A stretch of DNA of 64,000 nt from Jeotgalibaca porci (GTDB taxonomy: Bacteria; Bacillota; Bacilli; Lactobacillales; Aerococcaceae), in contig NZ_CP049889.1 of the NCBI RefSeq assembly GCF_011299095.1, positions 1,092,501-1,156,500 of the forward strand. The letters run 5' to 3'. The notes beneath the pieces are model-generated. The model ran no database searches, was not told the origin of the DNA, and worked only from the letters and a program-made list of their open reading frames with translations. Each line of letters begins with the position of its first letter. Positions within the stretch are counted from its first letter, which is position 1. This document shows, piece by piece, positions 7,192 to 37,863 of the stretch. The position numbers and the translations under genes were made by a program.

Positions 7192-8649
7192 TTACTTACG
7201 GGCTTTACGAACTTTAAGGTTCTTCCCTTTAATCGTGCGGTCTTGCATTTCTGCAATCACATAAGGACCCATGCCATTCAAAATTTCCACATACGTAACA
7301 TTCTCCTGAATCGTGATAATCCCGATATCATCAGCTTCAACACCCTTGATATTCGTCAATGTGCCCACGAAATCAATAGCGCGCAGTTTCTTCTTTTTAC
7401 CGCCGTTGAAGTAAACTTTTGTAATATCCCGGTTCAATTCTTTATTACGGGCCACTTTCGGACGCATCGGTTCTTGATTTTTCTTATCAAATGCAACCTT
7501 AGCACGCTGAACTACACGCGTACTCGGAGCCTGAATCTCTACAGGACCTTCTTTACCTTCGAATACAAAAGCAACTACTTCTTGCCAACGGTACGCACCT
7601 TTATCGCTAACCAAAGTCATCGCTTGGCCTTCTTTACCCGCACGGCCTGTACGACCTGTACGGTGAATGAAGCTTTCATTTTCAAACGGAACGTCGTAGT
7701 TCATAACGTGCGTCACATGATCAATATCAATTCCGCGGGCCGCAACATCTGTTGCAACTAAGTAACGGATTTTTCCAGAACGGAAATCGGTCATGACCGC
7801 CAGACGGTCGTCTTGATCCATCCCACCATGGAGTTTATCGACAAGCAATCCTTTTTTAGCTAAAAATGCATCCACGTCATCCACAACATCTTTTGTATTA
7901 CAGAAAATAATGGCTGCTTCCGGATTCGCAACAGTCAATAAATCAATCAAGACATCATTTTTCTTTTCTTCGGAAACGCGGATGTACGACTGATAGATAC
8001 GCGGTTGATTGTCCGGGGATTGATCCATTTTCACAGACACACGGTCTTCACGCATGTAAAAAGTTGCTAAACGCGCCACTTCCGGCGGCATAGTTGCCGA
8101 AAACAGCATCGTTTGACGATTCTTAGGCAAGTAATCAATGATTGCTTCTACTTGGTCAATGAATCCCATATGTAACATTTCGTCCGCTTCATCCAATACA
8201 ACCGTGCGAACTTTCTCGACAGACAATGTGCCTTCTTTCAAATGCTCTAAGACACGGCCGGGCGTTCCCACTACAATATGGCTCTTTTGTTTCAATTCCG
8301 ACTTTTGCGTTTTGAAGGACGATTTTCCAAAAACCGCAGTCACTTTGATACGTTTCAAACGCCCGATGTTCATGATTTCTTCTTGAATTTGGAGTGCCAA
8401 TTCACGGGTCGGTACAAGAATGAGCGCTTGGGGTTTATTCTCTTCCCAAACTGCATCCTCGCACAAAGGAATCCCAAAAGCTGCCGTTTTACCACTTCCT
8501 GTTTGTGACTCAACGATAATATCCGCTTTTTTCAAAGCCAAAGGGAGAACTTCTTCCTGAACAGGAGTCGGGCTGTAATAACGCAAACTCGTCAGTGCCT
8601 TAATTATTTCAGGACTAATCCCGAATGTTTCAAATGTTTTATTTTCCAT
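7192..8649 (-). CDS. dbpA: DEAD-box RNA helicase DbpA (YxiN type)
   Basis: ATP-dependent RNA helicase acting in 50S ribosomal subunit maturation. 485 residues. N-terminal Q motif (TPVQ), motif I SQTGSGKT (about 46-53), Ia PTRELA, II DEAD, III SAT, and VI HRTGRTGR are all present. The C-terminal ~75 residues (starting near 405) contain the DbpA RNA-recognition fold, with KLRAIDFVGTLTNIKG, which in this family targets 23S rRNA hairpin 92. The length matches Bacillus YxiN (about 480). A cluster of inverted repeats lies just upstream. Confidence 0.9.
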   Translation of the reverse strand: MENKTFETFGISPEIIKALTSLRYYSPTPVQEEVLPLALKKADIIVESQTGSGKTAAFGIPLCEDAVWEENKPQALILVPTRELALQIQEEIMNIGRLKRIKVTAVFGKSSFKTQKSELKQKSHIVVGTPGRVLEHLKEGTLSVEKVRTVVLDEADEMLHMGFIDQVEAIIDYLPKNRQTMLFSATMPPEVARLATFYMREDRVSVKMDQSPDNQPRIYQSYIRVSEEKKNDVLIDLLTVANPEAAIIFCNTKDVVDDVDAFLAKKGLLVDKLHGGMDQDDRLAVMTDFRSGKIRYLVATDVAARGIDIDHVTHVMNYDVPFENESFIHRTGRTGRAGKEGQAMTLVSDKGAYRWQEVVAFVFEGKEGPVEIQAPSTRVVQRAKVAFDKKNQEPMRPKVARNKELNRDITKVYFNGGKKKKLRAIDFVGTLTNIKGVEADDIGIITIQENVTYVEILNGMGPYVIAEMQDRTIKGKNLKVRKARK

Positions 8650-8746: not shown

Positions 8747-8754
8747 CGCTGAAA

Positions 8755-9140
8755 CGCTGACTCAGATTGAAAATCGGGTTTGAGTCAGCGTTTCTATCCG
8801 AAAACGACTACTCAAAGCGAAAATCGGGTTTGAGTCAGCGTTTCTATCTAAAAACGACTACTCAAAGCAAAAATCGGGTTTGAGTCAGCGTTTCTATCCG
8901 AAAACGACTACTCAAAGCAAAAATCGGGTTTGAGTCAGCGTTTCTATCTAAAAACGACTACTCAAAGCAAAAATCGGGCTTGAGTCAGCGTTTCTATCTA
9001 AAAACGACTACTCAAAGCAAAAATTAGGTTTGAGTCAGCGTTTTTATCTAAAAACGACTACTCAAAGCAAAAATCGGGTTTGAGTCAGCGGTTCTATCTA
9101 AAAACGACTACTCAGATCAAAAATTAGGTTTGAGTAGTCG
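8755..9140. repeat. Tandem hairpin array, 50-bp period, eight loops
   Basis: The loop segment AAATCGGGTT (or AAATTAGGTT, AAATCGGGCT) recurs at 8771, 8821, 8871, 8921, 8971, 9021, 9071 and 9121, an exact 50-base period. Each repeat is a hairpin with CTCAAA/TTTGAG inner arms. The first hairpin has perfectly paired outer arms CGCTGACTCA/TGAGTCAGCG; the last has CGACTACTCA/TGAGTAGTCG; the six in between are chimeras with a left arm of the last type and right arm of the first type. The loops vary little and there are no unique spacers, so this is not CRISPR. It fills most of the 540-base gap between dbpA and the DUF1129 gene. Confidence 0.93.
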
Positions 9141-9149
9141 TTTCTCCGA

Positions 9150-9189
9150 TAAAAGAGAGGGTGAGACAAAATGTCCCACCCTCCTCTCT
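9150..9189 (-). terminator. Terminator of the DUF1129 gene
   Basis: On the minus strand GAGAGGAGGGTGGGAC pairs with GTCTCACCCTCTC across a short loop, with Ts after the stem, immediately behind the DUF1129 stop codon. Confidence 0.75.
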
Positions 9190-9190
9190 A

Positions 9191-9874
9191 TTAAAACACG
9201 CCACCCGTTATGTTGAATTTTTTCTTCAAGTAAACTCTCAATGCGAAGCTGAGAGCACCAATGATCAAATAGGCGGTTGCCGGCAAGCTGATATTAATTG
9301 CTGGTGGAACCAAGACCATTGTCGCTGTCATTGCTAACATCCAGAAAACCATAGAAAGGATAAGGACTCCGATATACTTGAAGTAACCTTTTTTACCTTT
9401 CGGTGCATTTACATCTGGTTGATATTTAGAAACAATCAGCATCGATAGACCACCGGCGATGAAATTCAGGATTAAGCTGACAATCCCCATTCCCGGTTGC
9501 GTATTTTCGCCTGCTGTTAGTAAAGATGTCCCTGAAATCAAGGCAAAGATTGCACCTAATAGTAAACCTCCATCAAGGGCAATCAGCCAATCCGGCGAAC
9601 GCTCTGAACTAACAGTTGCTTCTTGGCGTTGCAAGACATTTTCTGCGCACTCTGAAACAGTGCCGTATAGTTGGCGTGCTGTCGTACCAGACTTTTGATT
9701 TGTAACTAATTCTTTCATCATCTTATTGTATAGCGTATGTTTACTTTCTTCATCGTAATTCGCTTGTGTAAGCGCACGATCAAGACCAATCATGTATTGC
9801 TCGTTACGCTTTGTAAGTTCGCTCCACAAGACACTATTTTCATTTTTAGTTTGTTCAAGTGTATTTTCTGACAC
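9191..9874 (-). CDS. DUF1129-family membrane protein
   Basis: Function unknown. 227 residues: a soluble, charged N-terminal half (1-105) followed by about four transmembrane segments (approximately 108-128, 138-158, 172-195, 198-218). The pattern and the position after ychF match the DUF1129 family, which in Lactobacillales is commonly found beside ychF, DUF951 and parB. It starts 36 bases after the ychF stop behind an AGGAGG site and has its own terminator, so it closes this unit. Confidence 0.75.
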   Translation of the reverse strand: MSENTLEQTKNENSVLWSELTKRNEQYMIGLDRALTQANYDEESKHTLYNKMMKELVTNQKSGTTARQLYGTVSECAENVLQRQEATVSSERSPDWLIALDGGLLLGAIFALISGTSLLTAGENTQPGMGIVSLILNFIAGGLSMLIVSKYQPDVNAPKGKKGYFKYIGVLILSMVFWMLAMTATMVLVPPAINISLPATAYLIIGALSFALRVYLKKKFNITGGVF

Positions 9875-37709: not shown

Positions 37710-37721
37710 GAACACCAAACA

Positions 37722-37805
37722 GCTCACTCAAATCAATTTTACGATTTGAGTGAGCCTTTTGTGAAATAATAGCTCACTCAAACTGATTTTACGCTCTGAG
37801 TGAGC
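37722..37805. repeat. Two tandem hairpins, 50-bp period, behind treR
   Basis: GCTCACTCAAA...TTTGAGTGAGC at 37722-37755 and GCTCACTCAAA...CTGAGTGAGC at 37772-37805; starts are exactly 50 bases apart and each is followed by CTTTT. They act plausibly as a double terminator for treR. Their 26-base core (ACTCAAA, ATTTT, G, TGAGT) matches the inverted core of the hairpin array at 8755-9140. Confidence 0.85.
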
Positions 37806-37863
37806 CTTTTTGCTGCAAAAACCTACTATAATAAAAAGAAGGAATCCTTTACAGACAATGTCA

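Follow-up and report, generated by a model that had tools for sequence, protein, structure and literature searches.

BOX elements of Streptococcus pneumoniae are dispersed repeats that fold as RNA and are made up of distinct end modules and of middle modules that vary in number, and the REP/BIME elements of enterobacteria are alternating inverted motifs found in intergenic regions at gene 3' ends. The 52-nt constant-length repeats of Firmicutes were reportedly also the subject of Subirana and Messeguer (2020, J Bacteriol). In PMC8161180, these tandem repeats have a constant size of 52 nt, occasionally 51 or 53, and a variable, species-specific sequence, and the repeats of one genome have short sequences in common, often together with their reverse. 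Between strains, their position is conserved in part and the length of the arrays varies. Transcription of such 52-nt satellites in B. coagulans was reported by the authors from RNA-seq (PMC8625621). As published, the constant-length satellites are an enigma, with a length that is kept, a sequence that is free and a function that is unexplained.

The array described here lies in a stretch of 64,000 nt of the Jeotgalibaca porci genome, hereafter the window. It resembles the 52-nt satellites of PMC8161180 in a unit length near 52, a free sequence, several families per genome, species specificity, a non-coding nature and a host among the Firmicutes, and on identity alone it is very probably a constant-length satellite of Firmicutes. 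The genome holds families of 50 and 51 bp with a between-array loop identity of 0.52, congeners give no match to the sequence while one of them (G004) carries 51-bp arrays of its own, the short sequences ACTCAAA and TTTGAGT are shared as a motif with its reverse, as retrieved by a core-based search, and the arrays are non-coding. The differences lie in the length, which is 50 bp, one to two bases short of the published size, in the window array, 50 or 51 bp in the sister arrays and 51-53 bp in relatives against the published 51-53, and in the host, here probably one of the Carnobacteriaceae, judging by the relatives with the same core and a 79% YchF match to Carnobacterium jeotgali, whereas the paper stresses Bacillus and Paenibacillus. 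Moreover, the text of PMC8161180 consulted here does not describe the fixed 12-nt loop, the combination of chimeric inner arms and matched end hairpins, or a placement beside terminators. STAR elements of Staphylococcus (PMC3532100) are similar as dispersed intergenic arrays with a unit of ~50 nt, loci that differ between species, locus-specific spacers and a copy number that varies within a locus. However, they are built on a 14-bp GC-rich direct repeat, T(G/A/T)TGTTG(G/T)GGCCC(C/A), which is absent from the window array units, and an assignment to STAR was rejected on reading these unit sequences. The likeness to BOX is one of architecture, with distinct end modules and with middle modules that vary in number and are similar in length, but the end units of the present arrays depart from the middle ones in one arm only. 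REP/BIME share the alternating inverted motifs and the intergenic location at gene 3' ends, and differ in that the present arrays have no REP-associated tyrosine transposase (RAYT), a near-perfect periodicity and a different core. The features of the window are as follows, with coordinates counted from its first base.

7192 to 8649, minus strand: downstream neighbour, a DEAD-box RNA helicase with a DbpA domain (open reading frame and domain match)
8753 to 9142, no strand assigned: the whole array, eight units at 50-bp steps (TRF and unit table)
8753 to 8792, no strand assigned: unit 1, matched hairpin AACGCTG-ACTCAGA-N12-TTTGAGT-CAGCGTT (X-L-X'), terminator-type score above 0 on the plus strand (unit table)
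8803 to 9092, no strand assigned: units 2 to 7, chimeric AACGACT-ACTCAAA-N12-TTTGAGT-CAGCGTT, paired in the core and mismatched at the 3 positions beyond it (unit table)
9103 to 9142, no strand assigned: unit 8, matched hairpin AACGACT-ACTCAGA-N12-TTTGAGT-AGTCGTT (Y-L-Y') (unit table)
9156 to 9184, minus strand: intrinsic terminator of the DUF1129 gene, a 13-bp stem followed by CTTTTATC
9191 to 9874, minus strand: upstream neighbour, a DUF1129 family protein (open reading frame; PF06570, E 9e-53)
37719 to 37808, no strand assigned: second array of the same superfamily, two units with matched GCTC/GAGC arms at a step of 50 (unit table)

The window array consists of eight units separated by seven exact 50-bp steps, with 92% identity and no indels (8753-9142). 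TRF reported a period of 50, 7.5 copies, 92% matches, 0% indels and a score of 638 at 8770-9145. When the units are aligned by the core ACTCAAA-N12-TTTGAGT, their starts fall exactly at 8760 + 50k, and the autocorrelation reaches 0.91 at lag 50, with values of 0.35 or less at every other lag between 30 and 70. These three measures confirm the eight loops at 50-base steps of the preliminary description, which had placed the array at 8755-9140; the array is real, while its true limits are 8753-9142. Unit-by-unit pairing of the arms likewise agreed with the earlier observation that only the outermost hairpins are fully matched and that the inner arms are chimeric. The arms of unit 1 (CGCTG/CAGCG) and unit 8 (CGACT/AGTCG) are fully paired, while each of units 2-7 joins a left CGACT to a right CAGCG, so that three positions on either side mismatch beyond the 7-bp core, and has a predicted hairpin energy of about -8 to -10.5 kcal/mol. 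On the minus strand, which is that of the neighbouring genes, the array folds in silico at -144 kcal/mol versus -92 kcal/mol for dinucleotide shuffles (z -10.2), and unit 8 is followed by TTTTT on this strand of the upstream gene. The terminator of the DUF1129 gene (9156-9184) abuts the array, directly before it on the minus strand. As the preliminary description had held, the array is neither coding, being overlapped by no gene between the flanking open reading frames at 7192-8649 and 9191-9874, nor a CRISPR. A CRISPR has identical repeats and unique spacers, and here the entire 50-bp unit repeats at 92%, with loop and spacer repeating together with the arms. The Rfam search of the window gave no match above the gathering score for the array; its sole match was a T-box leader elsewhere, at 1748-1970 on the minus strand (RF00230, 119 bits). 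Phage and plasmid searches returned nothing that accounts for the array, and a pattern scan of viral contigs gave eight single matches and again nothing accounting for it. The two-unit array at 37719-37808 is flanked by convergent genes.

The preliminary description had proposed a genome search for the core, and this search of the 2.35-Mb genome (two contigs) identified at least 30 sister arrays on the same chromosome; being keyed on an ACTCAAA-type core, it would miss arrays that lack such a core. Thirty arrays were taken with their flanks, and 157 units were parsed. They fall into two families, 14 arrays with 50-bp steps and chimeric arms, and 16 with mostly 51-bp steps and matched GCGC or GCTC arms. 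Every one of the 157 units contains ACTCAAA and TTTGAGT, or one of their few variants, a figure to be read in the light of the search having used this core. The loop is 12 nt long in 154 of the 157 units, its positions 5-8 are 97-100% A/T across the 30 arrays, and nearly all of the 127 steps measure either 50 bp (81) or 51 bp (43), together 124. Loop identity is 0.82 inside arrays and 0.52 between them, indicating that the length is held while the sequence drifts. Neither chromosomal clustering of the arrays nor a relation of genomic distance to loop similarity is claimed, as both signals were weak (p 0.02 to 0.49).

Outside this genome, BLAST with the array gave no match in five congeners or 54 other relatives, and a pattern search of the 75 remaining family genomes found none either. 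When 85,000 species genomes were scanned for the pattern, true ACTCAAA-type arrays were present in Carnobacterium jeotgali, Alkalibacterium gilvum, Alkalibacterium MB6, Pisciglobus halotolerans and Ornithinibacillus bavariensis; contig matches outside the Bacilli were dismissed as chance, most being single pattern matches without a TRF array. All 12 TRF-backed ACTCAAA-type arrays of other species have a period of 51-53 bp, where the pattern permitted 44-58, and A. gilvum carries further arrays of 51-52 bp. In the congener G004, of which 520 kb were sampled, non-coding arrays of 51 and 53 bp have different cores, e.g., AGAGGTTCA/TGAACCTCT. Relatives thus retain the unit length and not the sequence, which argues for a length constraint. 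Samples of 100 kb from each of four other Lactobacillales families contained no arrays of the constant-length kind, and the sampled stretches of some genomes were also free of arrays, suggesting a patchy trait. Single consensus units from other species fold as RNA modestly better than shuffles, with a mean z of -1.9, and strong RNA structure is therefore not general to constant-length satellites. Several non-coding arrays with periods of 40-43 bp were seen in genome G016 (L164:12415-13106 and L165:10090-10728), possibly representing another constant-length class.

The arrays are located at gene 3' ends. Based on the orientation of flanking genes called by a crude open reading frame finder, the 30 arrays of J. 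porci comprise 16 in convergent, 12 in tandem and two in divergent regions, one of them (L033) scored as tandem after its flanks were read. Arrays of other species lie in 12 convergent, eight tandem and no divergent regions, with four unclassified. The baseline in G004 is 34 convergent, 140 tandem and 47 divergent. Pooling all classifiable arrays gives 28 of 50 in convergent regions, where 15% would be expected, and 2 of 50 in divergent regions, where 21% would be expected. The excess of convergent sites is significant in J. porci (p 2e-6) as well as in the other species (p 7e-6), and so is the scarcity of divergent placement (2/50, p 7e-4). Many arrays directly adjoin an intrinsic terminator, and the distance from terminator to first unit centres near 50 bp, although abutting features give ~50 by construction and phasing is not claimed. 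In G004, the space separating two convergent stop codons is taken up by a six-unit 51-bp array (L136:11307-11601), whose hairpins are perfect and have T-rich tails. It lies ~0.5 kb from a helicase gene, in a gene order unlike that of the window.

Within the 50-bp family, terminator-like units are concentrated at the array ends, comprising 12 of 28 end units vs 4 of 69 inner units (p = 4e-5), and the end units of the window array lie slightly above threshold by a d'Aubenton-type score. The terminator-type role raised in the preliminary description is plausible, and it could tentatively be suggested that the matched end hairpins are kept as back-up terminators. Yet the upstream gene at the window is already served by a separate conventional terminator, most units of the 51-bp family lack good T runs, and the inner hairpins of the 50-bp family are weak. 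A simple terminator scanner, which accepts loops of 3-8 only, called no terminator inside either the window array or the G004 array, and a terminator role leaves the constancy of unit length at 50-53 bp unexplained.

How the array arose is informed by its sisters. The preliminary description had derived it from two adjacent hairpins that expanded by unequal crossover or slippage, and the form of the window array fits such a local origin, as unequal exchange between two unlike neighbours predicts X-L-X' at one end, repeated Y-L-X' units and Y-L-Y' at the other. Nevertheless, the chimeric plan is common to 13 of the 14 arrays with 50-bp steps, and one inner arm is always the same CGCTG/CAGCG, the other being CGACT, CGACG, GTGACG or TGATT, which makes a separate origin at this site doubtful. 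In 10 of the 13 chimeric arrays, one or both end units pair at six or seven of the seven arm positions when wobble pairs are allowed, but the window array is the only one of the 14 to retain both founder hairpins, one at each end. Taken together, formation at the window site appears quite unlikely, and the chimeric unit looks like an inherited, dispersed founder whose copy number later changes in tandem. The tandem expansion in the preliminary description is borne out, and unequal exchange is still the natural route for changes in copy number.

On balance, we favour the view that the array is a dispersed, species-specific, non-coding satellite of the constant-length (~52 nt) Firmicutes kind, combined with a working model in which its ends act on transcription. 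In each unit, two inverted cores of 7 bp (ACTCAAA/TTTGAGT) enclose the fixed 12-nt loop with its A/T centre, and a fixed spacer of 24-25 nt links neighbouring units. In the model, tandem duplication and loss would change the copy number, so that units stay alike within an array, and new arrays may be seeded at gene 3' ends, beside or within the terminator region. The fully matched end hairpins with flanking A/T runs could serve as auxiliary, often bidirectional, intrinsic terminators and thereby insulate neighbouring, mostly convergent, genes, while the inner units would mainly be amplification products, tolerated where no promoter is broken. For the published enigma, the genome supplies an anatomical reading, with inverted cores, a fixed A/T-centred loop of 12 nt and matched end hairpins, and the location rule, i.e., gene 3' ends, beside terminators and seldom divergent promoters, applies to other Carnobacteriaceae as well, including some whose sequences are unrelated. 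The puzzle thereby becomes testable: whether the end hairpins stop transcription, whether array loss leads to convergent interference and what fixes the length.

Dispersal could also have proceeded with no function at all, by a trans-acting transposase or template switching followed by slippage amplification, with the gene-end placement reflecting removal from promoters only. Such a selfish or neutral satellite would be in line with the species specificity and the near absence of arrays from divergent promoter regions, and placement at 3' ends is also expected of a neutral insert purged from promoters. Furthermore, three arrays of C. jeotgali (L063, L064 and L087) are carried in a single repeated, MITE-like element whose boundaries are shared and whose terminal inverted repeats, TTAGGGTGTGTTTTAAAACTA / TTAGGACGTGTTTGAAAACTA, are imperfect, suggesting one route of array spread. 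In J. porci, however, no common carrier element was found, the flanks giving only two short matches, one of them within paralogous NERD genes. The length is moreover strictly kept although loops diverge by ~48% between arrays, and matched terminator-like hairpins concentrate at array ends, so that a purely neutral satellite seems somewhat unlikely. A REP/BIME-like element mobilised by a RAYT would share the intergenic location, hairpin formation, alternating arms and gene 3' ends. Still, the only matches to Y1 transposases in the genome (PF01797) are three copies with TnpB-type genes 1 kb away, i.e., ordinary IS200/IS605 elements, and none is near an array; RAYT and IS605 involvement was rejected, and such mobilisation is extremely improbable.

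A function for the repeated unit itself is proposed in PMC8161180, where Subirana and Messeguer put forward a version of a protein-binding array. In the present case, a protein would read the alternating inverted cores and polymerise or loop at the fixed unit of ~51 bp, with an effect on nucleoid shape or on the insulation of convergent genes. Besides being argued there, this would account for the constant length despite drift of loop and spacer and for the same length with unrelated cores in other species, and inverted cores with an A/T-rich centre resemble many operator sites. On the other hand, the analysis identified no partner protein, any protein common to the species would need to recognise shape or length given cores that vary between them, and the use of 50, 51, 52 and 53 bp means that helical phasing is not strict; we regard this explanation as unlikely. 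It could further be speculated, as a distinctly improbable extension, that the ~51-bp unit is a physical ruler for a conserved Firmicute factor, either a protein or linked to RNA polymerase, which needs hairpin or inverted-core units spaced in this way at gene ends. Each species would then have independently evolved a fitting sequence, and the arrays would be a distinct class of gene-boundary insulators.

The paralogous NERD-domain genes (L037:3560-4435 and L112:3454-4308) abut two arrays of different families, which is probably incidental. Finally, the first 20 kb of the second contig (L104, 52.7 kb) match, over ~28% of their length and at ~98% identity, Enterococcus plasmids that carry bacitracin resistance genes (bcrABD) and IS1216-type transposases.
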